Notes: generated by a model from the letters alone, not told the origin. 64,000 nt of DNA from Armatimonadota bacterium (GCA_031432545.1 JAVKGX010000002.1:62001-126000), one strand, 5' to 3'. Shown: positions 34,734 through 54,744, numbered from the stretch's first letter. Program-made: numbers and translations.

Positions 34734-37508
34734 TCAGACGGGCTCGAGCAGCCGGCGCAGCATCATCGGCAGCACGCCGCCGTGCCGGTAGTAGGAGAGT
34801 TCGGTCGCGGTGTCGATCCGCACGGTCGCCTGGAAGGTGACGCCGTCGCCGTCGGTCCGGTGGGCGCGGACCGTCACCGTACCACCCGGACGGAGGCCAT
34901 CGGCCAACCCGAGCACATCGTAGACCTCCTTCCCGGTGAGCCCCAGCGACTCGGCGCCGTCGCCGTCGCGGAACTGCAGGGGCAGCACGCCCATCCCGAC
35001 CAGGTTGCTGCGGTGGATGCGTTCGTAACTTTGGGCGAGTACCGCACGCACACCGAGCAGCGATACCCCCTTGGCTGCCCAATCTCGCGAGCTGCCCGCA
35101 CCGTACTCCTTGCCCGCCAGCACCAACAGCGGTACGCCCTCACTCCGGTAGCGCATGGCGGCATCGTAGATGGGCAACAGCTGCCCGCTGGGCAAGTGCA
35201 CTGTCCAGCCGCCCTCGCGCCCGCCCGCCAGCGCGTTGCGCAGCCGGATGTTGGCGAACGTTCCCCGCATCATGACCTGGTGATTGCCCCGTCGCGCACC
35301 GTAGCTGTTGAACTCCGCGGGGGATACCCCGTGCTCGATCAGGTAGCGGCCCGCGGGGCTGTCCGGCGGGATGCTGCCCGCAGGCGAGATGTGGTCGGTG
35401 GTGACGGAATCTCCAAGCACCGCCAAGACCCGGGCGCCCCGGATATCCTGCAGGGGTCCAGGCTGCGGGGGCAGGTCCTGGAAGAAGGGCGGTTCCTGTA
35501 CGTACGTGGAGTCGGGGTCCCACGCGTAGAGGTTGCCCTCCGGAACCGGTAGGGTCCGCCACGCCTCGTCGCCCGTGAACACATCCCGGTAACGCTCGCG
35601 GAAAAGTTCTGGGCTCACGTGGCGCCCCACCAGCTCCTGCACCTCGTGGGTGGTTGGCCAGATGTCCGGTAGGTACACGGGATTCCCGTTGGGGTCGTAC
35701 CCCACGGGGTCCCGGGTCAGGTCGACGTCCACAGTGCCCGCCAGGGCGAAGGTCACCACGAGGGGCGGGCTCGCTAGGTAGGCAGCCCGTACCAGCGGGT
35801 GGATCCGGCCCTCGAAGTTGCGGTTGCCGCTCAGTACTGCGGCGACGACCAGGTCATGCTCCTGGATGGCCTTCGCCACGGGCTCGGGCAGCGGCCCGCT
35901 GTTCCCGATGCAGGTGGTGCACCCGTAGCCCACCAGGTGGAAGCGCAGCGCCTCCAGGTAGGGCATCAGCCCCGCCTGCTTGAGGTACTCGGTTACCACC
36001 GCAGACCCCGGCGCCAGGCTCGTCTTCACCGCGGGACTCACCACCAAGCCTCGCTCGACCGCCTTCTTGGCCACCAGCCCCGCGGCCAGCATGACGGAGG
36101 GGTTGCTGGTGTTGGTGCAGCTGGTGATGGCCGCGATGACAACCGATCCGTGCCGCAGCTCCGCGTGCATCCCGTCCAGGCGGACATCCACGGTCTTGGG
36201 CCAGGAGGCGACGGCCGCGCCGCGGTCTCCGGCGGGCCGGCCTCCTTCAGACTCCAGACGGCCGGTGGCGACCCGGTTCGCGTCGGACGCGCCGATCCGA
36301 TCCCCCAACGCCGCGTAGAAGCTGCGTCCAACGTCTCGCAGGGGGACCCGGTCCTGGGGCCGCTGCGGACCTGCCACACTGGGCTCCAGGGTGCCGAGGT
36401 CCAGCTCCACCACCTGGTCGTACGCCGGCTGTGCGCTCGCTTCCCAGAACATCCCCTGCTCCTTGGCGTAGCGCTCCACCAGGGCCGCGTGATCTGGGTC
36501 CTGGCTTGTGAGGCGCAGATAGCCCAACGTCTCGTTGTCGATGGGGAACAGAGCGGCGGTGGCCCCGTACTCGGGTGCCATGTTGGCGATGGTGGCCCGG
36601 TCCGGCAGGGACAGATGGTACAGGCTGGGCCCGAAGAACTCCACGAACTTGTCCACCACGCCCACTCGGCGCAGGATCTGGGTGACCGTGAGCACCAGGT
36701 CCGTAGCCGTGACGCCCTCGGGAGGCGTGCCGTGGAGCCGGAGGCCCACCACCTCCGGAGCCGCCAGGTAGATCGGCTGGCCCAGCATCACCGCCTCCGC
36801 CTCGATGCCGCCCACGCCCCAGCCCAGCACGCCGAGCCCGTTGACCATGGTGGTGTGGGAATCCGTCCCCACGAGACTGTCGGGGAACGCGACCTGCTCG
36901 CCGTCCTGGTCGCGCGTGGCCACCACCGAGGCCAGGTACTCCAGGTTCACCTGGTGGACGATCCCCGTACCCGGCGGCACCACCCGGAAGTTGCGGAACG
37001 CCTTCTGGGCCCACCGCAGCAGGGCATACCGCTCGCGGTTGCGCTCGTATTCCCGCTCCACGTTGAACCGGAAGGCCAGCGCCGACCCAAAGGCGTCCAC
37101 CTGTACCGAGTGGTCGATCACCAGGTCCACAGGCACCAGCGGGTTGATGCGTTTGGGGTCGCCGCCCAGGCGGGCGACCGCAGACCGCATGGCTGCCAGG
37201 TCCACCACCGCCGGGACACCGGTGAAGTCCTGCAGAAGCACCCGCGCAGGCAGAAACGGCACCTCCCGCCCCGCACGTGAACCCGGCTGCCAGGAGGCGA
37301 GCGCACGCACGTCGTCTTCGGTGAACGGACCGCTTCCCGCAAAGCGGAGCACGTTCTCCAGTAGGACCTTGACGGTATAGGGGATGCGGTCCAAAGACAG
37401 CGTCAGATCGTCCGCGAGCGCGCCCAACCGATAGTAGGCAACGGTCTGCGTCCCTGTGGACAGCGTTGAGCGGGCGTGGAAGGGGTCTCGGCGGCTCATC
37501 GGCAGCAT
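34734..37508 (-). CDS. acnA: Aconitate hydratase A
   Basis: The protein has 924 residues, a full-length AcnA/IRP-type enzyme that isomerises citrate and isocitrate with a [4Fe-4S] cluster. Cluster cysteines are visible in AAITSCTNTSNPSVM and in GYGCTTCIGNSGPLPEP; substrate and structural motifs include SLVGTDSHTTMVNGLGVLGW, LFPIDNETLGYL and GKEYGAGSSRDWAAKG. ATG 37508 or ATG 37499 can serve as the start. It lies 15 nt after the NarL-type regulator gene and before the frameshifted two-component genes on the same strand. TCA cycle function is secure. Confidence 0.95.
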   Translation of the reverse strand: MLPMSRRDPFHARSTLSTGTQTVAYYRLGALADDLTLSLDRIPYTVKVLLENVLRFAGSGPFTEDDVRALASWQPGSRAGREVPFLPARVLLQDFTGVPAVVDLAAMRSAVARLGGDPKRINPLVPVDLVIDHSVQVDAFGSALAFRFNVEREYERNRERYALLRWAQKAFRNFRVVPPGTGIVHQVNLEYLASVVATRDQDGEQVAFPDSLVGTDSHTTMVNGLGVLGWGVGGIEAEAVMLGQPIYLAAPEVVGLRLHGTPPEGVTATDLVLTVTQILRRVGVVDKFVEFFGPSLYHLSLPDRATIANMAPEYGATAALFPIDNETLGYLRLTSQDPDHAALVERYAKEQGMFWEASAQPAYDQVVELDLGTLEPSVAGPQRPQDRVPLRDVGRSFYAALGDRIGASDANRVATGRLESEGGRPAGDRGAAVASWPKTVDVRLDGMHAELRHGSVVIAAITSCTNTSNPSVMLAAGLVAKKAVERGLVVSPAVKTSLAPGSAVVTEYLKQAGLMPYLEALRFHLVGYGCTTCIGNSGPLPEPVAKAIQEHDLVVAAVLSGNRNFEGRIHPLVRAAYLASPPLVVTFALAGTVDVDLTRDPVGYDPNGNPVYLPDIWPTTHEVQELVGRHVSPELFRERYRDVFTGDEAWRTLPVPEGNLYAWDPDSTYVQEPPFFQDLPPQPGPLQDIRGARVLAVLGDSVTTDHISPAGSIPPDSPAGRYLIEHGVSPAEFNSYGARRGNHQVMMRGTFANIRLRNALAGGREGGWTVHLPSGQLLPIYDAAMRYRSEGVPLLVLAGKEYGAGSSRDWAAKGVSLLGVRAVLAQSYERIHRSNLVGMGVLPLQFRDGDGAESLGLTGKEVYDVLGLADGLRPGGTVTVRAHRTDGDGVTFQATVRIDTATELSYYRHGGVLPMMLRRLLEPV

Positions 37509-37524
37509 CGGTTCCGTGTTGTGC

Positions 37525-38178
37525 TCATGCCTCGATCAGACCCTTGCGGATCGCGTACCGTACCAGCTCGGTACGGTCGTGCAGGTTGAGCTTCTCCATG
37601 ATGTGCGCACGGTGGGTCTGCACGGTCTTGATACTTATGTACAGCCGCTTGGCGATCTCCTGATTCGTCAGGCCCTCGGCGATCAGCGTGAGCACCTCGC
37701 GCTCGCGCGGCGTGAGACCGTCCAGCGACGCCGGCTCTTCCTTCGCTGCCGCACGGTCCAGGAAGTCCTGCACGACGAGGCGCGCCACCGACGGGTACAA
37801 GAATGCTTCCCCGCGGTGCGCGGCACGGACGGCGGAGACGAGGTCTTCGGCCGCGGCTCGCTTGAGCACGTAGCCGGCCCCACCCGCGCGCAGCATCCGG
37901 AAGACGTAGCTCGGCTCCTCGTGCATCGTCAAGCCAAGCACCTGCACCGACGGCAGCTCCTGCCGGATCTTCTCCGTCGCCTCGATCCCGGTCATGTCCG
38001 GCATGCTGATGTCCATCACCACGACGTCGGGCCGCAGCTGCCGCGCGAGTTCCAGCGCCTCGCGGCCGGTGGCGGCCTCGCCGACGACCTCGAAGTCCCG
38101 CTGGCCGGACAGGATCATCCGAACCCCCTCCCGCACGATGCTGTGGTCGTCGGCGATGAGAATGCGGATCTTGTTCAT
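37525..38178 (-). CDS. NarL/FixJ-family response regulator
   Basis: The protein has 217 residues. The receiver has IRILIADDHSIVREGVRMIL, the phospho-acceptor Asp in DVVVMDISMPDMTG, Thr in LGLTMHEE and Lys in GYVLKRA. The LuxR HTH is LTPREREVLTLIAEGLTNQE through KTVQTHRAHIMEKLNL. It follows the soluble kinase gene by 64 nt and is the third gene of the PucR-kinase-regulator operon. Target genes are not visible, but the divergent importer operon is the obvious candidate. Confidence 0.93.
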   Translation of the reverse strand: MNKIRILIADDHSIVREGVRMILSGQRDFEVVGEAATGREALELARQLRPDVVVMDISMPDMTGIEATEKIRQELPSVQVLGLTMHEEPSYVFRMLRAGGAGYVLKRAAAEDLVSAVRAAHRGEAFLYPSVARLVVQDFLDRAAAKEEPASLDGLTPREREVLTLIAEGLTNQEIAKRLYISIKTVQTHRAHIMEKLNLHDRTELVRYAIRKGLIEA

Positions 38179-38242
38179 GACCGCCCCCGGCGCCGGGTTG
38201 CGGGCGCCGCGCCGGCGGTGGGGCGTCGTATCGTGCCCACCT

Positions 38243-39460
38243 TCACCCGCCGGACTCGTCGTGCAGCGGAATCCTCGCCAGCACCGTCGTGCCGACGCCG
38301 GGCACCGACAGCACCTGGAGCGTACCGCCTACCAGCTGCGCGCGCTCCCGCATCCCCGCCAGACCCAAGGTCGCCCGGGGTTCCGGGTCTGTGCTGTCGA
38401 ACCCGGTCCCGTCGTCTCGGACCATCACGAGCAGGAACCCGCCGCGGCGGTCCACGCGGATCTCCAGCTGTCGTGCCTGCGCGTGCCGCAACGCGTTCGT
38501 CACGGCCTCCTGCACGATGCGAAATACGACCGTCTCGACCTCCTGCGGAAGGCGCTGCCCAATGTCACCGATGTGGACGTCGGCTCGCAGACCGGCCGCA
38601 TGCACGTAAGTGTCCGCATACCAGCGGAGTGCGGGTCCCAGACCGAGGTCGTCGAGGATCGAAGGCCGCAGTTCGTACACGAGCTTGCGCAACTCGTCCA
38701 GTCCCTGCTGCGCCAGGTCGTGCAATTTCCGCAGCGCCGGCGCCAGCGGCCCGTCCTCGGACTCCGCGCGTCGGGTGAGTTGCGCGAGCTGGATGATCAG
38801 CGCCGTCATCATCTGTCCGGCGTGGTCGTGCAGGTCCCGGGCGATGCGCCGCCGTTCCTCTTCCTGCGCGACGAGCAACCTCTGCAGCAGCTGACGCCGC
38901 GTATGCTCCTGCTCGCGCACCTGGTCGAACAGACGGGCGCGCTGGACGGCGACAGCGATCTCGTGCCCCAACGCCTCCAGCAGGTCGAGTTCCTCCGCGG
39001 CGAACGACCTGCCCGGGGGCAGCAGCAGATTCAGGATCCCGACGGTTTCGTCCTGCGCGATCAGCGGAACCGAGGCGTGGCGGTGCCGCTCGGGCGACTG
39101 GGGCAGGGCCTGCTCCAGCCGCGCGCAGTCAATGAAGTTCACGGGCTCGGCGAGCCGCCCCTCCCGCAGCATCGAGATGCACCGGCAGTCCCCGGCCATC
39201 CGCCGCTTGCCGGAGACCGACAGCGCCGGAGGTAGGTTCACGTCTGCAGCCATACGGAACTCCCCAGGCTCCGGGCCGTGCAGGAAGATCCAGCCGGCGT
39301 CGACGTCCATTAGTTCGACGATGCGGTGCAGGGCTCCATCGAGTGCCTCCCGCAGTGTGTACGATCGGTTGAGCACCTCAGCGATGCCGCGGAAGATCGC
39401 GGTCTGCCGGGCGACGTGGCGCGGGGCATCCGTTGGTTGGGCTTCCATCATGCCTATCAT
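38243..39460 (-). CDS. Soluble GAF-domain sensor histidine kinase (NarX/LiaS class)
   Basis: The protein has 405 residues with no membrane helix. The GAF domain (about 25-180) contains a Cys-x-Cys and a further Cys (GDCRCISML ... FIDCARLEQ) that could bind a metal, Fe-S cluster or haem. HisKA_3 carries the phospho-accepting His in ERRRIARDLHDHAGQ, and HATPase has QEAVTNALRHAQAR and DDGTGFDSTD, LGLAGMRERAQLVGG. It should phosphorylate the NarL-type regulator downstream. ATG 39460 overlaps the PucR stop by 4 nt. Being cytosolic, it senses an intracellular signal. Confidence 0.92.
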   Translation of the reverse strand: MIGMMEAQPTDAPRHVARQTAIFRGIAEVLNRSYTLREALDGALHRIVELMDVDAGWIFLHGPEPGEFRMAADVNLPPALSVSGKRRMAGDCRCISMLREGRLAEPVNFIDCARLEQALPQSPERHRHASVPLIAQDETVGILNLLLPPGRSFAAEELDLLEALGHEIAVAVQRARLFDQVREQEHTRRQLLQRLLVAQEEERRRIARDLHDHAGQMMTALIIQLAQLTRRAESEDGPLAPALRKLHDLAQQGLDELRKLVYELRPSILDDLGLGPALRWYADTYVHAAGLRADVHIGDIGQRLPQEVETVVFRIVQEAVTNALRHAQARQLEIRVDRRGGFLLVMVRDDGTGFDSTDPEPRATLGLAGMRERAQLVGGTLQVLSVPGVGTTVLARIPLHDESGG

Positions 39461-41106
39461 ACGGGCTCGCCGGCTCCGGGTGGCGAGTGTCGGGGACCGT
39501 GTTGCGCTCCCGTCGGTCGGCCGGACAGCTTCTCGATTTCGAGCGCCATCTGGAGGCGGAACCGGGTCTGGGGGTCGTCGAGACCTGCGCCCAGGATCTC
39601 CTCCATCCGCTCGACCCGGTGGCGCAGCGTGTTCCAGTGGACGTCCAGCCGCCGCGCCGCCGACCTCTGGTTGAACCCGCAGGTGATGAGGGCGACCGCA
39701 GTCTCGTACAGCGCCGCGCTGTGGTCGCGCAGGGCTCCCAGCGTGGCGCGGTACAGGCTTTCCATGGCCTCCCGGTCGGAGGCCGAGCCGAGGATCCGCA
39801 CCGTCTCGAAGTCCTCATACCACCAGACCCCGCTGCCGCGCACCGTACCCAGCGCGGCCTCCGCCTGCCGCAGGCTGAGCGGGATCCCGGTGTGACCCTG
39901 CTGGGGCCGTCCCACGACGAGCGCGACCGGCACCTCCGGTGCGGCGTCGCGCAGGTGGAGCCAGATGCCCTGGACCCGGCGGCGGAGTCTATCTTGCGGC
40001 AAGTCGGCGGAAATCAGACACTGCACCTGGTTCAGGGCGAAGGCCAAGAAGGCGGGCAGGCGAAAGGCTTCCAGGGCCGCCTGAAGCGCCTGGCCCAGCC
40101 GTGCGCGGTTCTGGAAGTCGTCGGTGGACGTGAGCGCGCGCGGTCGCACAGTCCCGTCCGCATCGACCGGAGCAGCGATGGCGACGGCGTACGTGCCCTC
40201 GGGGTCGAACCCCAACAGTTGCGCGCGCTCCCGCAACCCCGAGTCCCCAGTCAGCCTGCCCTGCAGGACCGCTTCGACGAAGGTGTTGCGCACGCGGGCC
40301 TCCGCGTCGGCTACGGCCTGCTGGCGCAGCAGGTGCAACCCCGCCACGACTGCGCCGTGTTCTCCCGCGCGCACGTCCAGTTCGTTCATCCCGCCCGGTG
40401 GGCCGACGACAATGAGATACCCGGACACCTCCCGCCCGGTGCGCACCGGAAAGAAGATGCCCTCGATTTGGTCCGTGCGGAAGCTCCCCTCGCGGTGCGC
40501 TGACGACCCAGACGCCGAGATCGCCCCGCGGGCGGCCCGCTCGATCGTCTCCCACTCTGCGGGGGTCGCGGTCAACGCGCGCAGCCGCCGGTCCGTGACG
40601 ACGACGCGCTTGCCGATCAGCTCCCCGAGCCGATCGGCGATGCTCTCCACGGCCTCGGCGTCGAGCGCGGCCGCGGTCAGCGTGCGGTGGATTCGCTCCG
40701 AACGCTCCAGCACCTCGAACTGCCGGCGGATGATCTCCCGGTTGATGGTCTCCACCAACTCGGCGAACGACGTCTCATGGTGCGCCTCGAGCACCGCCAG
40801 CCCGACTTCGCCTGCCGACGCAGCCTGGCGGATGGGGCTGGGAATGCTCGGGAAGAACGGCGGGTCCGCCCGGAACAGAATCGCGGAGGCGCCGGCGCGG
40901 TCCAGGTCTGCCAGGATCCTCCGCTGCTCGGCGGCGTCGGCCGGCCAACTGTATCCGGTCGTCAGCAGCAACTCCCCCCCGTGCGGCCAGGGCAGGACCT
41001 CGGGCCACGTGTGCACCCACCGGATGACCCGATCCAAGCCGTGGCGGGAGATCGGCTGCACGTCCCGCATGACATCCAAGCGCAACACCTCGTGCACCCG
41101 CAACAT
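39457..41106 (-). CDS. PucR-family transcriptional regulator
   Basis: About 549 residues from ATG 41106 (GTG 41109 is also possible). The N-terminal PucR-type sensory domain (about 5-120) has HTWPEVLPWPHGGELLLTTG; a central GAF/GGDEF-like region follows, and the C-terminal PucR HTH is at about 480-530 (AVALITCGFNQRSAARRLDVHWNTLRHRVERME). Family members control purine, amino acid and GABA catabolism and are activated by small ligands. The stop overlaps the start of the kinase gene, giving a PucR-kinase-NarL operon divergent from LIV system 2, with a palindrome in between. Confidence 0.9.
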   Translation of the reverse strand: MLRVHEVLRLDVMRDVQPISRHGLDRVIRWVHTWPEVLPWPHGGELLLTTGYSWPADAAEQRRILADLDRAGASAILFRADPPFFPSIPSPIRQAASAGEVGLAVLEAHHETSFAELVETINREIIRRQFEVLERSERIHRTLTAAALDAEAVESIADRLGELIGKRVVVTDRRLRALTATPAEWETIERAARGAISASGSSAHREGSFRTDQIEGIFFPVRTGREVSGYLIVVGPPGGMNELDVRAGEHGAVVAGLHLLRQQAVADAEARVRNTFVEAVLQGRLTGDSGLRERAQLLGFDPEGTYAVAIAAPVDADGTVRPRALTSTDDFQNRARLGQALQAALEAFRLPAFLAFALNQVQCLISADLPQDRLRRRVQGIWLHLRDAAPEVPVALVVGRPQQGHTGIPLSLRQAEAALGTVRGSGVWWYEDFETVRILGSASDREAMESLYRATLGALRDHSAALYETAVALITCGFNQRSAARRLDVHWNTLRHRVERMEEILGAGLDDPQTRFRLQMALEIEKLSGRPTGAQHGPRHSPPGAGEPV

Positions 41107-41121
41107 CACCTGTAGCCCCGA

Positions 41122-41145
41122 ATCATAGACGGTAAATACTATGAT
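41122..41145. promoter_or_regulatory. Palindrome ATCATAG-N10-CTATGAT in the divergent promoter
   Basis: Perfect 7-bp arms at 41122-41128 and 41139-41145 with a 10-bp spacer, in the only notably AT-rich stretch nearby. Both arms contain TATGAT on one strand, which resembles a -10 hexamer, so a regulator here would cover both divergent promoters. PucR is encoded next to it and is the natural candidate. CTTGT-GACA-ACAAG at 41170-41183 is a second, shorter inverted repeat between this site and the start at 41228. Confidence 0.55.
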
Positions 41146-41227
41146 AAACGCCCAAATCGATTCGGATCATCTTGTGACAACAAGCCCTTGATTTCGCCTC
41201 CGCGCACACCTGTAGCATGAGGCAACG

Positions 41228-42463
41228 ATGTCGTCTCGACACGGCAGGCGTCGACGTGCCGCCGACACGATTACGGTGGGCTGTTTGTATCCGCTGACCG
41301 GCCGGGCGGCGCGCTACGGGCACGACGCGATCGTGGGTGCCGAGATGGCGGCCGACGAGATCAACGAAGCCGGCGGCGTGGACGGCTCCGAGTTGAGGCT
41401 GCTGTTCTCCGACGACCGGTCCGATCCCACGTTCGCCGTCAAGGTGGCCCAGCGCTATGTGACCGAGGACCGCGTCGAGTTCCTGATGGGGGTGGTCAGC
41501 AGCGCCGTCGCTTTGGCGGTGACCGAGGTTTCCCGGCACTTCGGTGTCGTCTTCGTCGGCACCGACCACGCGTCGGGGAGGCTGACCATCGAGCAGTTCC
41601 AGCCGTACTACTTCCGGGTGACGAACAACACGGTGCAGTCCATGCGCGCCGGCGCCATGTACCTGCAGCGCCGCCCGTGGTCCACCTACTTCTACATCGG
41701 GCCGGACTACGAGTACGGGCACAGGCAGTGGCAGGACTTCCGGGACCATCTCGCCCAGCTGCGGCCGGATGTGGCGTTCATCGGGCAGGCCTGGCCGAAG
41801 CTGTACCAGAGCGACTACCGACCGTTCATCCGTGCGATCCTCGAGGCTTCGCCGCAGGTGCTCGTCCACGGCTTTTGGGGCGGAGACACGATCGCCTTCC
41901 TCGAACAGGGGTTGGAACTGGGTCTATTCGACCGCATCCAGGTCGTCAGCTTCGACGCGGGTGGCAACTACGAGGTGTTCGAGGCCCTAGGCGACCGCAT
42001 GCCCACCGGCCTCATCCTGAGCGCCCGCCACCACAACAACTTCCCGCAGACGGATGAAAACCGCACCTTCGTGGAGCGCTTTTGGTCGAGGGCGCGGCGC
42101 TATCCGTCGTACACGGCGCACGGGGCGTACGTCGGCGTGCACTTTATCGCGCAGGCCGTGCAGCGGGCGGGATCGGTGGACAGCGACGACGTCGTCCGCG
42201 CGGCCGAAGGCATGCAGCTTCGTACGCCTCGCGACCGCGAAGGTTTCTGTTCGTGGATCCGGCCGGTCGATCACCAGATCGTGCAGGAGATGTACATCGG
42301 CGTCAGCGAGCCCAACGTTGACTTCGCGCCGGCGCGCGTGATGCTGGGGCGGTGGGAGGTGATCCCCGCCGACCGGCTGTTGCCCGACACCGAAGAGATC
42401 CTGCGGCTGCGGCAGGCGGCCGCACAGCACAGATCGGCCATTCCACACGGGGGTGGGTCATGA
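41228..42463 (+). CDS. LivK-type solute-binding protein without signal peptide (system 2)
   Basis: The protein has 411 residues from ATG 41228, with GAGG 6 nt upstream. The N-terminus MSSRHGRRRRAADTITVGCL enters the first strand of the Peripl_BP_6 fold with no hydrophobic leader and no lipobox, and no upstream frame supplies one. The rest is complete (LTGRAARYGHDAIVGAEMAA, FYIGPDYEYGHRQWQDF, VVSFDAGGNYEVFEALGD). Such a protein would stay in the cytoplasm, as in AmiC of the Pseudomonas amidase system, and could sense rather than transport. It precedes a leader-bearing homologue with ATGA overlap. Confidence 0.85.
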   Translation: MSSRHGRRRRAADTITVGCLYPLTGRAARYGHDAIVGAEMAADEINEAGGVDGSELRLLFSDDRSDPTFAVKVAQRYVTEDRVEFLMGVVSSAVALAVTEVSRHFGVVFVGTDHASGRLTIEQFQPYYFRVTNNTVQSMRAGAMYLQRRPWSTYFYIGPDYEYGHRQWQDFRDHLAQLRPDVAFIGQAWPKLYQSDYRPFIRAILEASPQVLVHGFWGGDTIAFLEQGLELGLFDRIQVVSFDAGGNYEVFEALGDRMPTGLILSARHHNNFPQTDENRTFVERFWSRARRYPSYTAHGAYVGVHFIAQAVQRAGSVDSDDVVRAAEGMQLRTPRDREGFCSWIRPVDHQIVQEMYIGVSEPNVDFAPARVMLGRWEVIPADRLLPDTEEILRLRQAAAQHRSAIPHGGGS

Positions 42464-43800
42464 GGCAAAGGAACGTCCATACGTCCGTTGCCCGGCGGGT
42501 GGCGGGGATCGCCGCGGCGGCCGCGCTGGCGGTGGCGGTGGGGGCGCCCGGCGGGACGGCCGGGGCGGGACCCGCACGGCCGGCGGAGGTCAAGATCGGC
42601 ATCGTTACCTTCCTGTCCGGTCCGGCGGCGGCGCCGTTCGGCATCCCGGCCCGCAACGCGGCCGAGGTGCTCATCGACGAGATCAACGCCGGCCGCGCGC
42701 CGGCCCCGTACAATCAGCGGGGCATCGCTGGGGTTCCGATCCGCGTGGTGTACGTGGACGAAGCCGGGGGAGCGGACCGGCAGGTCGCGGAGTTCCGCCG
42801 CCTGGTGCTGGACGAGCGGGTGGACCTGGTGATCGGGTACATCTCCAGCGCGGACTGCCTGGCGGTCGCACCGGTCGCCGAGGAGCTGCGCGCGCTGCTC
42901 GTGATGTTCGACTGCGGCACGAACCAGATCTTCGAAGAGCGCAGCTATCGGTACGTGTTCCGCACGCACGGCCACCAGATCCTGGACAACGTCGGGGCGG
43001 CGCGGTACATCTTGCGGATCAAACCCGAGATCGCGTCGATCGCGGGGATCAACCAGAACTACGCGTGGGGGCAGGACTCGTGGCGGGACTTCCGGGACTC
43101 GGTGCGCAGACTGAAACCCGACGTACGCGTGATGGGCGAGCACTTCCCGCCTCTGTTCGGCGGTGAGTACTCGGCTCAGATCTCTGCGCTGCTGGGCGCA
43201 CGGCCGGAGGTCGTGCACACCAGCTTTTGGGGTGGCGACCTCGAGAGCTTCCTCATCCAGCAACTGCCCCGGCGGCTGTACGAGCGCAGCACTCTCGTGT
43301 TGACCACCGGGGACACCGTTCTGCCGCGTCTGGGGCGCAACATGATCCCGGGGGTGGTCGTCGGAGCACGCGGGCCGCACGGCGCGCTGGCGCCCAATGT
43401 CCCGCTGAACCGGTGGTTCCGGGAGGTGTATGCGCGGCGGTTCAACGTCCGTCCCGTGTACCCCTCGTACCACATGTCTCAGGCGATCTTCGGAGTCAAG
43501 ACGGCGTACGAGCGGGCGCAGCGGCAGGTGGGAGGATGGCCGACCCGAGAACAGGTCATCGACGCGTTCCGGGGGATCACGTTCGACACTCCCAGCGGTC
43601 CGATCCGCATGGCGCTGGGCCGCGGGCACCAGGCGATCGAGCCGGTGGCCTATGGGATCACGAGCCGTTTCAACACCGCCACGGGGGAGTACGATCTGAC
43701 GCGCGTCGTGGTCTTTCCCGCCGAGTGCGTCAACCCACCGGAGGGGATGACCAGCGCCGACTGGATCGCGCAGGGCTTCCCCGGGGCACGCTGCCCGTAG
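42460..43800 (+). CDS. ABC transporter solute-binding protein with signal peptide (system 2)
   Basis: The protein has 446 residues from ATG 42460. A signal peptide (VARRVAGIAAAAALAVAVGA) occupies about residues 10-35, and the mature sequence starts EVKIGIVTFLSGPAAAPFG. YVDEAGGADRQVAEFRRLV, SSADCLAVAPVAEEL, AWGQDSWRDFRDS and SFWGGDLESFLIQQL are characteristic for this HAAT subgroup. Clearly the exported receptor for the LivHMGF genes that follow. Only distantly similar to the leaderless protein before it. Confidence 0.9.
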   Translation: MRQRNVHTSVARRVAGIAAAAALAVAVGAPGGTAGAGPARPAEVKIGIVTFLSGPAAAPFGIPARNAAEVLIDEINAGRAPAPYNQRGIAGVPIRVVYVDEAGGADRQVAEFRRLVLDERVDLVIGYISSADCLAVAPVAEELRALLVMFDCGTNQIFEERSYRYVFRTHGHQILDNVGAARYILRIKPEIASIAGINQNYAWGQDSWRDFRDSVRRLKPDVRVMGEHFPPLFGGEYSAQISALLGARPEVVHTSFWGGDLESFLIQQLPRRLYERSTLVLTTGDTVLPRLGRNMIPGVVVGARGPHGALAPNVPLNRWFREVYARRFNVRPVYPSYHMSQAIFGVKTAYERAQRQVGGWPTREQVIDAFRGITFDTPSGPIRMALGRGHQAIEPVAYGITSRFNTATGEYDLTRVVVFPAECVNPPEGMTSADWIAQGFPGARCP

Positions 43801-43863
43801 ACGGGTGAGCCGGAGGAGACGGGGCCCGGCGCCCAGATTCCGGTCGAGACGTGGTGGGGCGCT

Positions 43864-44751
43864 GTGACGACCATCGTCGCGGACGGCTTGGTCTTCGCTT
43901 CCTGGCTGTTCCTGGTCTCGGCCGGGCTGACGCTGATCTACGGCGTCCTGCGCATCCTCAACATCGCCCACGGGAGCCTGTACGCGCTGGGTGCGTACGC
44001 CGGGGCTTCGCTGGTCATCGTCTACTCCCAGCGCGAGGCGTGGCCGTACGGCACCTTCTTCCTGCTGCCGCTGGCAGCGGTGGTCGTCGGCGCGGTCACG
44101 GGCCCGGTGATGGAGCGGGGCGTCCTGCGCTGGATGTACGGCCGGGACCAGGTGTTGCAGCTGCTGGTGACCTTCGCGCTGTTCTTGATCCTGGAAGATG
44201 CGGTGAAGCTCATCTGGGGGGTCAGCCCCTACTACGCGTTCCAGCCCTACACGCTGTTGGGCGAAATCCACCTCGCAGACGTCGTCTATCCCGGTTACAG
44301 TATGCTGCTGGTCGGGGTGGCCGCCTGCGCGGCGGTGGGGCTGTGGCTGTTCACAAGCCGCAGCCGCCTGGGCCGCCTGGTCGTCGCCGTCATCCACGAC
44401 CCGGAGATGAGCACCGCGATGGGCGTCAACCTGCCGCGCGTGTACGTGCTGACGTTCTCCCTCGGAGCGTCCCTCGCGGCGCTGGGAGGTGCCTTCACCG
44501 CGCCGATGATCTCGGTCGTGCCGGGGATCGCCGTGGAGGTGATCGTGGTCGCCTTCGCGGTCGTGGTCATCGGCGGGCTGGGCAGCCTGGAGGGGGCGGT
44601 CGCCGGTGCGTTGCTGATCGGCCTGGTGCGGTCGGCGGCGGTCCATCTGTTCCCGGCGCTGGAACTGTTCGCGATCTACCTGGTGATGGCTGCGGTGTTG
44701 CTCGTCCGACCGCACGGGCTGTTCGCCCGCCCCGAGGCGCGGCGCATATGA
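43864..44751 (+). CDS. livH: ABC transporter permease, LivH type (system 2)
   Basis: The protein has 295 residues from GTG 43864. LVSAGLTLIYGVLRILNIAHGSLYALGAYAG is spread over the first membrane segments, GGLGSLEGAVAGALLIGLV is the conserved cytoplasmic loop, and the C-terminus LLVRPHGLFARPE is diagnostic of LivH. About eight membrane helices. Stop overlaps livM (ATGA). A 63-nt gap separates it from the binding-protein gene. Confidence 0.92.
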   Translation: MTTIVADGLVFASWLFLVSAGLTLIYGVLRILNIAHGSLYALGAYAGASLVIVYSQREAWPYGTFFLLPLAAVVVGAVTGPVMERGVLRWMYGRDQVLQLLVTFALFLILEDAVKLIWGVSPYYAFQPYTLLGEIHLADVVYPGYSMLLVGVAACAAVGLWLFTSRSRLGRLVVAVIHDPEMSTAMGVNLPRVYVLTFSLGASLAALGGAFTAPMISVVPGIAVEVIVVAFAVVVIGGLGSLEGAVAGALLIGLVRSAAVHLFPALELFAIYLVMAAVLLVRPHGLFARPEARRI

Positions 44752-45689
44752 ACGGGCTGGGTCGGGCCCTGCCAGCCGTCCTGCTGTTGGTCTTCGCTGT
44801 CCTCGGCTCCGTCCTGCCGGGCTGGCTGGTCTTCGTGTTGACCCTGGCACTCGCAAAGGGGCTGGTGGTGCTGGCGGTCGTCGTGCTCATGCGCGCAGGG
44901 CTGGTTTCGTTCGGCCACGGGCTGTTCTTCGCGGGTGCTGCCTACGCTGCGGGATTTGCCACGCGGGCGTGGGAGGTCAAGGAGGCGCTGCTGCTCATCC
45001 TGCTGGGCGTGGCGGTGGCGGTCGCCCTGGGAGCGGTCTTCGGGCTGCTCGCAGCACGGTACCGCGAGATCTTCTTCGCGATGCTCAGCTTGGCGTTCTC
45101 GATGGTGCTGTACGGAGTGCTCATCAAGGCCTACACGCTCACCGGCGGCAGCGATGGGTTGCGGATTCCCGTTCCGACGATCCTCGGCGTCGTGCCCCAG
45201 CTGGAGCAGGCCCGGCTGGCGATCTACTACGTCGCCCTGGCAGCGGTTGCCGTGGCGGTTGCGCTCATCCGGCGCTACTCCGCCGCTCCGCTTGGCTACC
45301 TCATGCAGGCGGTGCGCGACAACGAGGTTCGCGTGGGCTACTTGGGCGCGTCCGTGAACCGGGCCATCTATCTGACCTACGTGCTGTCGGCCGCGCTCGG
45401 CGGGCTGGGAGGGGTGTTGGTCGCACTCAACGTCGGCCACATCGACCCGAACCTGGCGTACTGGACCACGTCGGGGGAATTCGTCTTCATCGCTCTGCTG
45501 GGCGGCACCGAGGGCGTTCTCGCGCCGCTGGCGGGCGCAATCGTCTACGAGCTGTTCAAGAGCTACGCGTTCAAGTACGCACCGTACGCGTGGCAGATGA
45601 TGATGGGCGGTATCATGCTGGCGATCATCCTGTTCCTGCCGGGCGGGTTGTGGGCGCCGATCGAGCGGGCCCTGCGGAGGACGCGGTGA
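44748..45689 (+). CDS. livM: ABC transporter permease, LivM type (system 2)
   Basis: The protein has 313 residues. Membrane helices contain VVLMRAGLVSFGHGLFFAGA, the LivM signature, and RYREIFFAMLSLAFSMVLYG followed by TGGSDGLRIP. The gene is coupled to livH by an ATGA overlap and to livG by GTGA. It forms the second half of the importer pore in the inner membrane. Confidence 0.92.
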   Translation: MNGLGRALPAVLLLVFAVLGSVLPGWLVFVLTLALAKGLVVLAVVVLMRAGLVSFGHGLFFAGAAYAAGFATRAWEVKEALLLILLGVAVAVALGAVFGLLAARYREIFFAMLSLAFSMVLYGVLIKAYTLTGGSDGLRIPVPTILGVVPQLEQARLAIYYVALAAVAVAVALIRRYSAAPLGYLMQAVRDNEVRVGYLGASVNRAIYLTYVLSAALGGLGGVLVALNVGHIDPNLAYWTTSGEFVFIALLGGTEGVLAPLAGAIVYELFKSYAFKYAPYAWQMMMGGIMLAIILFLPGGLWAPIERALRRTR

Positions 45690-46429
45690 CGCCGGTCTTG
45701 GAGGTCACCGACCTCACGATGCGCTTCGGCAGCATCGCCGCGGCCGAGAGCGAGAACGTGACGGTCCACAGCGGGGAATTCGTCGGTATCGTGGGGCCCA
45801 ACGGCGCGGGCAAGACGACGTTTCTGAACCTCGTCACTGGCTACCTGCGGCCCCAGGCGGGGCGGGTGAAGTTTTGCGGGCGGGACATCCTCGGGTTGCG
45901 GCCGGAGGAGATCACGGCCCTGGGAATCGGAAGGTCTTTTCAGATCCCCCAGCTGTTCCTGACGCTGACCGTCCTCGAGAACCTGTTGGTCGCCCTGGCC
46001 TGCGCCGAACGGCGCAGCCTCGACTTCTGGCGGCCGTTGTGGCAGACAGACCGAATCCGTGCGGCACAGCAGGTGCTGGGACAGTTCGGCTTGGAGGCCG
46101 ACGCGGACCGGCCCGCGAGCGAGCTTCCGGAAGGTGGCCGCAAGCTGCTGGACATCGCGCTGGCGTTCGCGTTGCGGCCGACGCTGCTGCTGATGGACGA
46201 GCCCACCAGCGGGGTCAGCGCGCAGGAGAAGTTCGCCGTGATGGACAGGCTCGTCGCGGTGCTGCGGGAAGGTTCGGTGACCGCGATCTTCGTCGAGCAC
46301 GACATGGAGGTCGTCCGCCGCTACGCGGACCGGGTGCTCGTGCTCGACAACGGCCGCATCGTAGCCGAGGGACCACCGGCGCTGGTGCTCGGCGGGGAGG
46401 CCGCCCAGCAGGCAGCGAGGCCAGGCTGA
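45686..46429 (+). CDS. livG: ABC transporter ATP-binding protein, LivG type (system 2)
   Basis: The protein has 247 residues from GTG 45686. Walker A GPNGAGKTTFLNLV, Q-loop and LGIGRSFQIPQLFLTLTVLE, a poorly conserved signature (LPEGGRKLLDIALAFAL), Walker B LLLMDEPTSGVS and H-loop VEHDMEVVRRYADR. The signature is LPEGGRKL instead of LSGGQQ-like sequence, as in several LivG proteins. It lies between livM and livF and is translated with livM. Confidence 0.92.
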   Translation: MTPVLEVTDLTMRFGSIAAAESENVTVHSGEFVGIVGPNGAGKTTFLNLVTGYLRPQAGRVKFCGRDILGLRPEEITALGIGRSFQIPQLFLTLTVLENLLVALACAERRSLDFWRPLWQTDRIRAAQQVLGQFGLEADADRPASELPEGGRKLLDIALAFALRPTLLLMDEPTSGVSAQEKFAVMDRLVAVLREGSVTAIFVEHDMEVVRRYADRVLVLDNGRIVAEGPPALVLGGEAAQQAARPG

Positions 46430-46431
46430 CG

Positions 46432-47100
46432 ATGTTGTACGTACAGGACCTGCGGGTGAACATCCGACGGTTGGCGATCCTGCGCGGCGTGACCCTCGAG
46501 GTGCCTGCGGGGACGATCGTGGCGTTGGTGGGCCGCAACGGCGCCGGGAAAACCACGACCCTGCGCGCCGTCATGGGCTTGGTGCCCGCATCCGGCGGCT
46601 CGATCACCCTCGACGGAAGCGACCTGCTGCGGGTGCCGGCGCACGGTCGGGCGGCGCTGGGCATCGGGTACATGCCGGAGGACCGCCGGCTCATCCCCCA
46701 ACTGACCGTGGAGGAGAACCTCCTCCTGCCGGCCTGGGCGAACCGCATGTCGGACGCCACCGGGCGTCTGCGGGACCTGTACGAACGCATGCCGGCGCTG
46801 GCGGCGTTCGCCTCCCGCCGGGCCGGACACCTCAGCGGAGGCCAGCAGAAACTCGTCGCGGCCGCGCGCGCCATGATGACCGCCGACCGTGTTCTGCTGC
46901 TGGACGAGCCGTTCGAAGGACTGGCACCGGCGCTCGTGGGCGCGTTAGGCTCGGTGCTGCGGGGGCTGGCGCAGGAGGGTCGTGCCGTGCTGGTGGCAGA
47001 GTCCGAACACACCCACGTCGCAGCACTCGCCCACCGGGCACACACGATCGAGCGCGGAGAGACCGTGGGGTGCAGGAGATGGAAGAACACCGGCTGCTGA
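46432..47100 (+). CDS. livF: ABC transporter ATP-binding protein, LivF type (system 2)
   Basis: The protein has 222 residues. Walker A GRNGAGKTTTLRAVMG, YMPEDRRLIPQLTVEENLLLP, signature LSGGQQKLVAAARAM and Walker B VLLLDEPFEGLAP. The usual VEQN segment after Walker B is AESEHTH, which is unusual. The C-terminus is short and ends GCRRWKNTGC, overlapping the start of the aldehyde dehydrogenase gene by about 30 nt; so the tail may be non-functional. The importer and dehydrogenase appear to be one operon. Confidence 0.9.
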   Translation: MLYVQDLRVNIRRLAILRGVTLEVPAGTIVALVGRNGAGKTTTLRAVMGLVPASGGSITLDGSDLLRVPAHGRAALGIGYMPEDRRLIPQLTVEENLLLPAWANRMSDATGRLRDLYERMPALAAFASRRAGHLSGGQQKLVAAARAMMTADRVLLLDEPFEGLAPALVGALGSVLRGLAQEGRAVLVAESEHTHVAALAHRAHTIERGETVGCRRWKNTGC

Positions 47101-48506
47101 TCGGCGGGCGGTGGGTGTCTGGGGGCTCACTGTCGGAAGTCCGAAACAAATATACCGGCGAGGTGATCGGCGTACTTCCCGTCGCCACCCGCGCCGACGT
47201 GGAAGAGGCGGTGGCCGCCGCGCAACGGGCGGCGCCGGCCATGGCCGACTTGCCGGTACACCGCCGTGCCGAAATCTTGGCGAGGGCCGCCGCCTTGATC
47301 CGCGAGCGCAGGAAGGAGTTCGCGCGCACGATCGCGGCCGAAGCCGGCAAGGCTCTCAAGTACGCGCGGATCGAGGTGGATCGCGGGATCACGACGTTTG
47401 CCATCGCCGCAGAAGAGGCCCGCAGGCTGCACGGCGAGACGGTCCCCCTGGACGCCGTGCCCGCTGGAGAAGGTTACTTCGGGTTCTGGGTGCGCCGGCC
47501 CGTGGGGGTGGTGGCGGCCATCACGCCGTTCAACTTCCCCCTCAACCTGGTGGCGCACAAGGTGGCCCCCGCGCTGGCGTCAGGGAACACGGTGGTGCTG
47601 AAGCCGGCCAACACGACACCGCTGACGGCCGTCAAGCTGTGCCAGGTGCTCGAAGAGGCGGGTCTGCCGGCGGGTGCGATCAACCTCGTCAACGGGCCGG
47701 GCAGTACGGTGGGCGAGTGGCTGGTCACCGATCCCCGCGTGGCAAAGGTGTCGTTCACCGGCAGCCCACCTGTCGGCGAGCGGATCCTCTCGATCGCGGG
47801 CATCAAGAAGGTGACGCTGGAGCTCGGGAACACCTCTCCCGTGATCGTCGCACCGGACGCCGACCTGGACTACGTCGCCCGCAGGTGCGCGGTCGGAGCG
47901 TACTACAACTCCGGCCAGGTGTGCATTTCGGTGCAGCGCATCTATAGCGAGCGGGCGGCCTACGAACCCTTCGTGGAGCGGTTCGTGCGTGCCAGCGAGG
48001 AGATGGTGGTGGGCGACCCGCTGGACGAGCGAGTCGACGTGGGGCCAATGATCGACGTCCGCGAGGCCCAGCGGATCGAGTCCTGGGTCGCCGAGGCGCT
48101 GGCGGGTGGGGCGCGTGCCCTCACGGGAGCACGCCGGGAGGGTGCGGTATACGTGCCGACGGTGCTGACCGACGTCCGGCCCGACATGAAGGTCGTCGCT
48201 CAGGAGGCGTTTGCGCCCGTGGCGTCGGTGATCGCCTGCGACGACTTCGATGAAGCGCTGCGGCAGGCCGACGCGACCGAGTACGGCTTGCAGGCGGCGG
48301 TGTTCACGCGGGACCTGGATCGGGTGTTCCGGGCGATCCGGCGGCTGAACTTCGGCGGGGTGATCGTCAACGACACCCCGGCGTTCCGCGCCGACCACAT
48401 GCCCTATGGCGGGATCCGGCGCAGCGGCCTGGGCCGTGAGGGCGTGCGGTTCGCGATGGAGGAGATGACGAACATCCAGATGGTCGCGATCCGCTTGGCA
48501 CCGTAG
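47070..48506 (+). CDS. NAD(P)-dependent aldehyde dehydrogenase
   Basis: The protein has 478 residues from GTG 47070, or 475 from ATG 47079. The class is clear: ITPFNFPLNLVAHKVAPALA, KPANTTPLTAVKL, FTGSPPVGERI, the general base Glu in VTLELGNTSP and the catalytic Cys in NSGQVCISVQR, with GGIRRSGLGREGVRFAMEEMT at the end. It oxidises an aldehyde such as succinate semialdehyde, lactaldehyde or a branched aldehyde to the acid. Being tied to LIV system 2 and a Zn alcohol dehydrogenase, it points to oxidation of an imported alcohol, aldehyde or amine-derived compound. Confidence 0.92.
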   Translation: MQEMEEHRLLIGGRWVSGGSLSEVRNKYTGEVIGVLPVATRADVEEAVAAAQRAAPAMADLPVHRRAEILARAAALIRERRKEFARTIAAEAGKALKYARIEVDRGITTFAIAAEEARRLHGETVPLDAVPAGEGYFGFWVRRPVGVVAAITPFNFPLNLVAHKVAPALASGNTVVLKPANTTPLTAVKLCQVLEEAGLPAGAINLVNGPGSTVGEWLVTDPRVAKVSFTGSPPVGERILSIAGIKKVTLELGNTSPVIVAPDADLDYVARRCAVGAYYNSGQVCISVQRIYSERAAYEPFVERFVRASEEMVVGDPLDERVDVGPMIDVREAQRIESWVAEALAGGARALTGARREGAVYVPTVLTDVRPDMKVVAQEAFAPVASVIACDDFDEALRQADATEYGLQAAVFTRDLDRVFRAIRRLNFGGVIVNDTPAFRADHMPYGGIRRSGLGREGVRFAMEEMTNIQMVAIRLAP

Positions 48507-48538: not shown

Positions 48539-49666
48539 ATGCAGACGCGGGCTGCGGTTCTGTACGAGATGGGCCGTCCCAGGCCCTACACGGAGACGCA
48601 ACCGCTGCGCATCGAAGAAGTGGAGCTCGCAGGCCCTGGCCCGGGCCAGGTGCTGGTCGAAGTCGCCTGCGCCGGGCTGTGCCACTCCGATCTGTCGGTC
48701 ATCGACGGATCGCGGCCGCGCCCGATGCCGATGGTATTGGGGCACGAGGCGGCCGGCGTAGTCCGAGAGGTCGGGACGGGCGTCCACGACCTCAGCCCCG
48801 GCGACCACGTCGTGCTCTCGTTCGTCCCCACCTGCGGCCGCTGCCGCTACTGCGCTGGGGGTCGGCCGGCGCTGTGTGAAGTCGGCAACCGGGCCAACGC
48901 CGCCGGCGTCCTGCTGGACGGCACCTGCCGGTTCCGCGACCGGGCCGAGCGCGCCCTGCACCACCACCTGGGGGTGTCGGCGTTCTCCCGTTTCACGGTG
49001 GCGGCTCAGGAGTCGCTCGTCCGCATCGACGCTGACGTCCCGTTGGACCGGGCCGCGCTGTTCGGCTGCGCGGTCGTGACCGGCGTGGGCGCAGTCGTCA
49101 ACACGGCTCGTGTTCAACCCGGTACGGCGGTTGCGGTCTTCGGATTGGGCGGCGTGGGTCTGAGCGCGGTGATGGGCGCCCGCGTGGCGGGAGCGTATCC
49201 GATCGTGGCGGTCGACGTTGTGCGCGGCAAGTTGGATCTGGCGCGGCGAGTGGGTGCCACACACGTCGTCGAAGCCCGCGAGGACCCCGTCACCGCGGTC
49301 CGGGACCTGACCGGGGGTGGGGCAGACTATGCCTTCGAGAGCGTGGGGAGCGAGCAGGTACTCAGGCAGGCCTACGAGGCCACCCGCCGCGGGGGCACGA
49401 CGGTGGCGATCGGCCTGCCGGACCCCAGCAGGCCGTTCGTCGTCCCCGCGGTCAGCCTCGTGGCCGAGGAGCGGACGGTAAGGGGATCGTACATGGGCTC
49501 GGCCGTTCCGCGCCGCGACATCCCCCGATTCCTCGCCCTCTACCAGGCGGGCCTGCTGCCGGTTGACCTCCTGCTCACCCGCACGATTCCGCTGGACGCC
49601 ATCAACGACGCGTTCGAGGCACTCGCCCGAGGCGACGCGGTCCGCCAGATCGTCGCCACCTTCTGA
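48539..49666 (+). CDS. Zinc-dependent alcohol dehydrogenase (MDR, class III-like)
   Basis: The protein has 375 residues. Catalytic Zn ligands are CAGLCHSD and GHEAAGVV; the structural Zn lobe is CGRCRYCAGGRPALC, and the nucleotide site is FGLGGVGLSAVMGA with VAVDVV after strand 2, which suggests NAD. FGCAVVTGVGAVVNTARV is typical of the NDMA/formaldehyde-like subgroup. It probably supplies an aldehyde to the neighbouring dehydrogenase or acts on a hydroxyl compound from system 2 or 3. No ribosome-binding site is evident, so the start is provisional. Confidence 0.9.
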   Translation: MQTRAAVLYEMGRPRPYTETQPLRIEEVELAGPGPGQVLVEVACAGLCHSDLSVIDGSRPRPMPMVLGHEAAGVVREVGTGVHDLSPGDHVVLSFVPTCGRCRYCAGGRPALCEVGNRANAAGVLLDGTCRFRDRAERALHHHLGVSAFSRFTVAAQESLVRIDADVPLDRAALFGCAVVTGVGAVVNTARVQPGTAVAVFGLGGVGLSAVMGARVAGAYPIVAVDVVRGKLDLARRVGATHVVEAREDPVTAVRDLTGGGADYAFESVGSEQVLRQAYEATRRGGTTVAIGLPDPSRPFVVPAVSLVAEERTVRGSYMGSAVPRRDIPRFLALYQAGLLPVDLLLTRTIPLDAINDAFEALARGDAVRQIVATF

Positions 49667-49741: not shown

Positions 49742-50401
49742 GTGTGGGCACCGCCGGCCGTGTCGCACAGACAGACCCAGATCGCGCGAAACAACCACCG
49801 GCGCCTGCTCGACGCGGCGGCCCGCCTGTTCCGCGCGAAGGGATACGCCGCCACCGGTATCCGCGACCTGTCACGCGCCCTGCGCATGGAGACCGCCTCC
49901 CTGTACCACTACATGGATGGGAAGGAAGGTCTCCTCTACGAGATCGCGCGCCGCAGCCAGGAAGACCTCGCTGCCGCGGTCGCGCCGATCGTGGTCTCGG
50001 ATCGACCTCCGCTCGAAAAAGTCCGCAGCCTGATGACCACCCACATGACCATCGTCCTCCGCGACCGGGACAAGTACGCGGTCCTGCTGTCGGAGCTGAA
50101 GGCGCTGTCGCCGCGTCGGCGGGCCGCGATCGTCCGCCTGCGCGACGCGTACGAACGGATGGTGGACCACGTCCTGGCTGAGGGGCAGGGCTGCGGCGTG
50201 CTGCGGACCGACGTCCCGGTCCGCTACCTGCGGCTGGCGCTGCTGAACCTGCTGAACTGGTCCATCTACTGGTATCGGCCGAACGGGCCCCTGACCCCGG
50301 AGGCGCTGGCCGCCGTGCTGAGCGCGGTGTTCCTGGACGGCGCCCGCGCGCGCAGGTCGGTTCGGCGTTCCTTGACCGGCACCAGTACGTCAGGGAAATA
50401 G
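49742..50401 (+). CDS. TetR/AcrR-family transcriptional regulator
   Basis: The protein has 219 residues if started at GTG 49742. The HTH is RRLLDAAARLFRAKGYAATG, IRDLSRALRMETASLYHYMDGKEGLLYEI; the C-terminal helical ligand domain resembles that of regulators of fatty acid or acyl-CoA genes (about 80-200). Starting at 49742 leaves no ribosome-binding site, whereas GTG 49702 has AAGGAG 4 nt upstream but is in another frame; one base less in the A5 run at 49737-49741 would join the two. GTG 49760 is a further option. Its stop abuts the acyl-CoA ligase start. Confidence 0.87.
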   Translation: MWAPPAVSHRQTQIARNNHRRLLDAAARLFRAKGYAATGIRDLSRALRMETASLYHYMDGKEGLLYEIARRSQEDLAAAVAPIVVSDRPPLEKVRSLMTTHMTIVLRDRDKYAVLLSELKALSPRRRAAIVRLRDAYERMVDHVLAEGQGCGVLRTDVPVRYLRLALLNLLNWSIYWYRPNGPLTPEALAAVLSAVFLDGARARRSVRRSLTGTSTSGK

Positions 50402-53460: not shown

Positions 53461-54728
53461 GAAGGACGAGATGGGTTTGCGTGGGGTTGTGGGGCACCGC
53501 GCTGCTGCTGGCCATCGCCCCGCAGGCTGGCTCAGCACCGGCGACCTGCCAGCTCGGTGTGCCAGCGATCAGACTGGGGGTCCAGGGCGTCGCATCCGGA
53601 CCCCACGCGGATTACGGCCGCCAGATCCAGATGGGCGCAGTGATGGCGATCGAGGAGATCAACGCGCGGGGTGGTGTCCTGGGGTGCCGGCTGGAGATGC
53701 GCTTCATGGACGACGAGAACCGGCCGGCTACCGGTGTGCGCAACGCCCGGCTGCTGGTAACCGAGTACGGCGCGCACTTCCTGTACGGGACCGACAGCAG
53801 CGGGGTTGCGATGGCCCTGGGGCCGGTGCTCAAGGAGCTGGACCGCATCCAGTTCTTCACACACGCTGCCACGCACCGCCTGACGGAGGAACTCGTGGCG
53901 CAGCAGGGGATCCGGCAGATCGTGCGCGTCAGTGCGCCCGTGTACCAGGATGCGATTGCAGCATGGGTGTTCAAGGACAATCCACAGATTCGGCGCTGGG
54001 CGACGATCGGAGCCGACTATGAGTATGGCTACGCGACCTGGGCGCTGTTCCGCGATGCGATGCGGAGGTTCCGGCCGGATGTGGAGTTCGTGGGCGCGGC
54101 CTGGGCACCGTTTCTGACCACGGATTTCAGTCCTCATATCTCGGCGGTCATGGCGCAGAACCCCGACGGCATCATCGCCACCCCGTGGGCAGGCGAGGCA
54201 GTGACGCTTCTGCGGCAGGCCGTGCTGATGGGGGTCTTCGATCGCGTACAGGTGTGGTTCCAGGCCATGGGCGGGTCGGTCGACGTGCTGGAGGGCATTG
54301 CACGCGAGGTCCAGGAGGACCGCTTCAAGGGCAAGCTGTGGGCAACAGCCCGGTACATTCACAACTGGCCTGACACGCAGACCAACCGGGCCTTCGTCGA
54401 ACGCTTCGAGCGGCGGTGGGCTCGCCTACCGAACTATTCGGCGGAGACCACCTATTCCGCGATCCAGATCACGAAGGCCGCGGTGGAGAGGTCTCGCAGC
54501 CTTCAGACCGACCGGGTCATCGCCGCTCTCCGCGGGATGCAGATCGTGACGCCGGCCGGCCTGCGAGTGTTCCGGGAGCAAGACCAGCAGTTCGTCTACA
54601 CGGTGCCGGCAGGGCGCGTGGTGTGGAGCGCCCGGCACAACATGCCCATCCTCGGAGATCTCCGCGTCGTCAGCGCGCGGGAGTATTGGCGGTCTCCACC
54701 CTTTACACCGCTGCAGGTGGGAAGGTAG
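53457..54728 (+). CDS. ABC transporter solute-binding protein, LIV/HAAT type (system 3)
   Basis: The protein has 423 residues. A signal peptide (VGLWGTALLLAIAPQAGS) ends near residue 27, and the mature part starts with IRLGVQGVASGPHADYGRQI. GAVMAIEEINARGGVLGC, WATIGADYEYGYATWALFRD and KGKLWATARYIHNW are typical. The ATG overlaps the HpaB-like stop (ATGA), so import and metabolism genes are one operon. The substrate class is perhaps an aromatic or branched acid, inferred from the neighbours. Confidence 0.88.
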   Translation: MRRTRWVCVGLWGTALLLAIAPQAGSAPATCQLGVPAIRLGVQGVASGPHADYGRQIQMGAVMAIEEINARGGVLGCRLEMRFMDDENRPATGVRNARLLVTEYGAHFLYGTDSSGVAMALGPVLKELDRIQFFTHAATHRLTEELVAQQGIRQIVRVSAPVYQDAIAAWVFKDNPQIRRWATIGADYEYGYATWALFRDAMRRFRPDVEFVGAAWAPFLTTDFSPHISAVMAQNPDGIIATPWAGEAVTLLRQAVLMGVFDRVQVWFQAMGGSVDVLEGIAREVQEDRFKGKLWATARYIHNWPDTQTNRAFVERFERRWARLPNYSAETTYSAIQITKAAVERSRSLQTDRVIAALRGMQIVTPAGLRVFREQDQQFVYTVPAGRVVWSARHNMPILGDLRVVSAREYWRSPPFTPLQVGR

Positions 54729-54744
54729 CCGCGCAGAAACGGGG

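Follow-up and report, generated by a model that had tools for sequence, protein, structure and literature searches.

A leaderless solute-binding protein, SBP1, is encoded back to back with a PucR-type regulator in the genome of an Armatimonadota bacterium, and we propose that it is a dedicated ligand sensor which lost export when it became coupled to the cytosolic PucR protein, a reading to which we give a probability of roughly two in three. With somewhat less confidence, we lean towards the wider view that one sensor family changed compartment together with its partner, from an exported protein working with a kinase and an NtrC regulator to a cytosolic one working with PucR, with largely the same importer-dehydrogenase operon as the target. 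The locus lies in a stretch of 64,000 nucleotides, called here the window, from a source genome of 2.19 Mb in 21 contigs, whose phylum we suspect to be Sysuimicrobiota (CSP1-3).

SBP1 (41228-42463, plus strand) is the first gene of an operon that continues on the same strand with SBP2, LivH, LivM, LivG, LivF, an aldehyde dehydrogenase and a zinc alcohol dehydrogenase, and ends at 49666. The start of SBP2 (42460-43800; Peripla_BP_6, 3.1e-48) overlaps the end of SBP1 by ATGA; it encodes the secreted solute-binding protein of the importer, with a hydrophobic leader here and in its orthologues. Two permeases matching PF02653 follow, of the LivH type (43864-44751) and the LivM type (44748-45689), the latter match lying inside a longer mechanical open reading frame (43851-45689) with the start read from the sequence. 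The ATPases, LivG-type (45686-46429) and LivF-type (46432-47100), match PF00005. For the aldehyde dehydrogenase (47079-48506) the nearest NCBIfam model is that of lactaldehyde dehydrogenase (NF040648; 530.7 bits, under the cut-off of 650), and the zinc alcohol dehydrogenase (48539-49666) scores 346.6 bits with TIGR03989, under the cut-off of 440. On the minus strand, PucR (39457-41106) has the N-terminal PucR domain and C-terminal HTH_30 characteristic of its family, together with a GGDEF-like domain (PF07905, PF13556 and PF17853, all over cut-off), and shares with the SBP1 operon a divergent intergenic region (41110-41227). Beyond the operon, the interval 49742-55608 contains genes for a TetR protein and an acyl-CoA ligase, as well as another Liv-type operon, which encodes a leadered binding protein of its own (SBP3) and is similar to one on a Thermus oshimai megaplasmid (L132).

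Binding proteins of LivK/LivJ-type transporters are expected to bear an export signal, and SBP1 does not. The protein starts MSSRHGRRRRAADTITVGCLYPLTG, with no hydrophobic leader, and contains a full Peripla_BP_6 domain (Pfam, 5.5e-65). Where the signal peptide would be there is a short, basic, Arg-rich N-terminal tail (41228-41269), which is present in 8/8 cytosolic orthologues. The ATG at 41228 is the first start codon in frame after a stop, with GAGG upstream. Seven further leaderless orthologues, 66-76% identical to SBP1 of the window, come from the same family (G004, G005, G006), from another family of the same phylum (G007), and from a different GTDB phylum, outside the 43 genomes of the window's phylum (G043, G044, G074); the G044 copy runs off the end of its contig. 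Peak hydropathy before the fold, taken over 11 residues at a time in the region upstream of it, is at most 1.25 in all eight cytosolic proteins versus at least 2.0 in secreted paralogues, and the leader of the G006 SBP2 is visible in its sequence.

The fold and operon position of SBP1 are typical of a transporter binding protein, as they would be if it were a second binding protein of the importer that is exported by an unrecognised route or has a mis-called start. However, none of the eight orthologues has an in-frame hydrophobic run, all upstream frames in the window and three relatives were searched for a leader hidden by a wrong start or a frameshift and hold none, and only 106-158 bp separate SBP1 from PucR in all loci; this explanation has very little chance of being right. 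The claim of the initial annotation that the first protein of the operon has no export signal is thus borne out, in all eight orthologues, and the sequence correction adding a leader that it named as a possible refutation did not materialise. Its other possible refutation, that homologues are generally leadered, fails for the 8/8 close orthologues and holds for nine relatives in Pseudomonadota, described below.

PucR is divergent from SBP1 in 8/8 cytosolic loci, with a gap of 106-158 bp, in a sample of eight loci only that come mostly from metagenome-assembled genomes and are in some cases closely related. SBP2 and LivHMGF lie downstream in all seven loci with contigs long enough, and the next gene in each (7/7) encodes an aldehyde or alcohol dehydrogenase. 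Conservation of this neighbourhood, which had been suggested as a check on the initial annotation, is therefore found wherever the leaderless protein occurs in the sample. Among the PucR proteins outside this clade in the same two phyla, none faces an SBP1. The link between PucR and Liv operons is wider than SBP1, because remote PucR proteins of two genomes (G041, L086; G011, L087), ~38-41% identical, adjoin Liv-type operons with leadered binding proteins. On plasmids, the best PucR match (Burkholderia ambifaria, 30%) sits beside GABA-type catabolic genes, and there is no binding protein at that locus. We found no description in the open-access literature of a leaderless binding protein paired with a PucR regulator.

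Each of the eight loci has a related, partly dyad 20-bp site, at a distance of 58-73 bp upstream of SBP1. An operator matrix, applied with the group left out, recovers the site in the window (ACTATGATAAACGCCCAAAT, 41138-41157; shuffle p 0.022) and in G005, G006 and G007, and the site is not significant in the other four of the eight loci; 41138-41157 is accordingly put forward as a weak operator candidate. Searching the intergenic region for gapped words yielded nothing that exceeded shuffled sequence, no Rfam match was found in 30000-56000, and no sigma-70-like promoter or terminator in 40900-41400.

Next to PucR in the window, also on the minus strand, are genes for a soluble GAF-HisKA_3 histidine kinase (38243-39460; no transmembrane segment by hydropathy) and a NarL-type response regulator (37525-38178). 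The positions and strands of these two genes, of PucR and of the leaderless SBP1 agree with the initial annotation, which also correctly described an ATGA at which the PucR stop overlaps the kinase start. From this overlap it could be argued that SBP1, PucR, the kinase and NarL act around the importer as a single signalling unit, but we consider this highly unlikely, as orthologues of the kinase and of NarL are separate from PucR-SBP1 in all the relatives examined. Kinase orthologues (69-77% identical) lie apart from PucR and SBP1 in G004, G006 and G007, and occur as well in G001, G002 and G042, genomes without a close SBP1 or PucR; the ATGA coupling of PucR and kinase is seen in the window genome and in no relative. 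In G007 the NarL-kinase pair is beside aconitase, ~70 kb from PucR-SBP1. The window is therefore best described as two modules side by side, joined here by ATGA. The initial annotation had envisaged a cytosolic sensor, a PucR and a full two-component pair around one transporter; the leaderless protein and PucR part of that layout is conserved, the kinase-NarL pair is not a conserved part of it, and a circuit of three regulators is not supported. Aconitase, NarL and GAF kinase genes also occur together in the window (34734-39460), the same grouping as in G007 away from PucR-SBP1, and so make up a separate conserved neighbourhood.

A search of plasmids revealed an SBP1 that is 40% identical on Sinorhizobium meliloti plasmid pC, in an operon encoding a kinase, an NtrC-type regulator, SBP1, SBP2, LivHMGF, an iron alcohol dehydrogenase, an MBL-fold protein and an aldehyde dehydrogenase. 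A signal peptide is present on this SBP1, and the kinase combines two transmembrane segments with HAMP and HisKA domains. Sampling of Alphaproteobacteria and Pseudomonadota yielded eight more exported SBP1 proteins (n=9 in total). These nine are the closest relatives of SBP1 outside the leaderless group, and form a sister clade which the initial annotation had missed. All nine loci carry the kinase-NtrC-SBP1 gene set, each SBP1 has a leader-like hydrophobic run (hydropathy 2.05-3.06), and hydropathy indicates two transmembrane segments in 9/9 partner kinases. The external domain of the Pseudomonadota kinases is predicted to fold like Cache domains (pLDDT 80.6). The operon on pC (L131, 957-19056) may be mobile, because it is on a conjugative plasmid with integrase and IS5 transposase genes nearby.

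The exported SBP1 usually has the same SBP2-LivHMGF-ADH/ALDH operon nearby, with SBP2-Liv genes close in 7/9 loci. In G641 SBP2 is 29 kb away, and in G884 no SBP2 match at E 1e-30 was found in the whole genome; both keep SBP1 with the kinase and NtrC regulator, from which it appears that SBP1 follows its regulator, not the importer. Cytosolic-clade SBP1 genes are beside permease and ATPase genes where contigs allow, and G641 and G884 are without adjacent SBP2-Liv genes. This bears on the possibility that SBP1 is cytosolic and yet not the regulator's sensor, buffering or carrying substrate to the dehydrogenases or inhibiting the importer from inside, which would suit the place of the cytosolic-clade gene at the head of an importer operon with SBP2, LivHMGF and dehydrogenases. 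We know of no binding protein with such a substrate-carrier role, and we think the possibility unlikely, given that the sister-clade SBP1 stays with kinase-NtrC even when SBP2 is distant or absent and that the cytosolic SBP1 always faces PucR. In G884 (locus L149, 6279-14017) the SBP1 gene is followed by those for a Xan_ur-type permease and an AMP-binding ligase, and its product has changed pocket motifs (GAGHSS for GTDHAS, WTRD for WGGD); this sensor may have shifted to another ligand.

In a tree of 17 SBP1 proteins (8 cytosolic, 9 exported), with secreted paralogues as outgroups, the SBP1 clade (support 100/100), the cytosolic clade (100/99) and the exported clade (100/100) are all recovered. 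The split between cytosolic proteins with PucR and exported proteins with a kinase is clean, with one change of export state on the tree, and the simplest reading would be that the leader was lost once, when the membrane kinase was exchanged for PucR. Since this is one evolutionary event, the match between compartment and partner is a contrast made once, not a correlation in the statistical sense. SBP2 falls in a clade separate from SBP1, which shows that SBP1 is not a recent copy of it. This is relevant to a further explanation, in which ligand sensing is left to PucR by itself and SBP1 is a relic, an SBP2 duplicate minus its leader. Indeed, the N-terminal PucR domain, usually taken as the sensor, could sense the ligand unaided, which counts against a sensor role for SBP1, and paralogous binding proteins are common in these genomes. 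However, this explanation is very unlikely: besides falling in a separate clade, which argues against duplication, SBP1 is 66-76% identical across two phyla with pocket motifs intact, and is conserved as much as SBP2 or more.

The AlphaFold2 model of SBP1 shows the two lobes of a binding protein (pLDDT 82.4, pTM 0.84; range over the five models, 53 to 82). Among the first Foldseek matches to this model were 3i45 and proteins that bind urea or aromatic acids, with Liv-type proteins also matched, and the match to AmiC (1pea) has TM scores of 0.72/0.79. SBP1 thus has the type I (Liv-like) two-lobe fold of AmiC-type sensors by Pfam, AlphaFold2 and Foldseek. Almost every SBP1 protein, cytosolic or exported, has the motifs GTDHAS, IGPDY[ED]YG, FD[AT]G[GA]NY and RHH.N, G884 being the main exception, and ligand binding is therefore probably retained. 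WGGD is found at an equivalent position in SBP1 and SBP2 and is absent from SBP3; taken as proof of a common ligand this motif is suggestive only, and a related ligand for the two proteins is possible. The dehydrogenases of the operon point to an alcohol, diol or aldehyde as the substrate. A cytosol-specific C-terminal helix was also considered as the partner site, and was dropped because most exported SBP1 proteins carry a similar tail.

In the mechanism we propose, SBP2 would deliver substrate to LivHMGF for import, SBP1 not being the importer's binding protein, and the operon's alcohol and aldehyde dehydrogenases would oxidise what is imported. Cytosolic SBP1 would bind that substrate, or a product of it, and signal its ligand state to PucR, which is presumed to activate the SBP1 operon from the intergenic region that the two share. 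If AmiC-AmiR and NasS-NasT are a guide, PucR would most likely be kept inactive by empty SBP1 and freed when ligand binds; alternatively, ligand-bound SBP1 and PucR may form an activating complex. Contact between SBP1 and PucR, the sign of the effect and the identity of the ligand are what we infer here. Cytosolic SBP1 would have a single origin, in an exported sensor family, through loss of the signal peptide, and the exported survivors of that family would work with a membrane kinase, with its external Cache-like domain, and an NtrC regulator. The suggestion of the initial annotation that a cytosolic LivK-fold protein acts as ligand sensor is credible in so far as the protein is leaderless and faces PucR in 8/8 loci, with the sensing itself deduced from this arrangement.

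Both cytosolic binding-protein sensors (AmiC, NasS) and exported, kinase-linked ones (LuxP, TorT, XylFII) are already known. In the amide operon of Pseudomonas aeruginosa the cytosolic LivJ-fold protein AmiC has as its partner AmiR, an RNA-binding ANTAR antiterminator. SBP1 is likewise a cytosolic LivJ-fold protein proposed as a ligand sensor, but its sequence similarity to AmiC is weak (26 bits), its unit extends to a full importer served by a separate, leadered binding protein, and its conserved neighbour is PucR, which binds DNA where AmiR binds RNA, and not the ANTAR-domain partner expected of AmiC-type sensors. NasS, which lacks the signal sequence of NrtA and controls NasT, is similarly a leaderless homologue of a transporter binding protein that serves as a cytosolic sensor (PMC3795266), although it belongs to another binding-protein family (NrtA-like) and has an ANTAR partner. 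In LuxP-LuxQ, TorT-TorS and XylFII-LytS, exported binding-protein sensors signal to kinases (PMC6321045). The exported SBP1 of Pseudomonadota resembles these in sitting beside a two-transmembrane membrane kinase with an external, periplasmic domain, whereas SBP1 of the window is leaderless and sits with PucR.

Most PucR regulators that have been studied are activators, and for GabR, where the ligand leaves DNA binding unchanged, the action of the effector is unsettled (PMC7652997). Because the GabR ligand does not change DNA binding, there is room for an accessory sensor. As with GabR and other PucR activators, the PucR-type gene of the window is divergent from a catabolic operon that is its expected target for activation; the difference lies in the leaderless binding-protein partner, which we have not found described for those. 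Nor was any description found in the open-access literature of one sensor family split between exported proteins with kinases and cytosolic proteins with PucR.

If the proposal is true, PucR would be a new type of partner for cytosolic binding-protein sensors, which would point to a way in which some PucR proteins are informed of their ligand. Ligand action on PucR-family regulators is poorly known, and PucR with the leaderless SBP1 is a defined pair in which to study it. The paired exported and cytosolic clades may also be regarded as a natural experiment on how a sensor can be shifted from one side of the membrane to the other and connected to a different regulator. The label 'ABC transporter substrate-binding protein' can hide a regulator, and leaderless members are easily annotated as transporter parts.

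The minus strand of the window also has an antisense open frame of 861 codons (42271-44856) across SBP2 and LivH, which is probably a by-product of high G+C.
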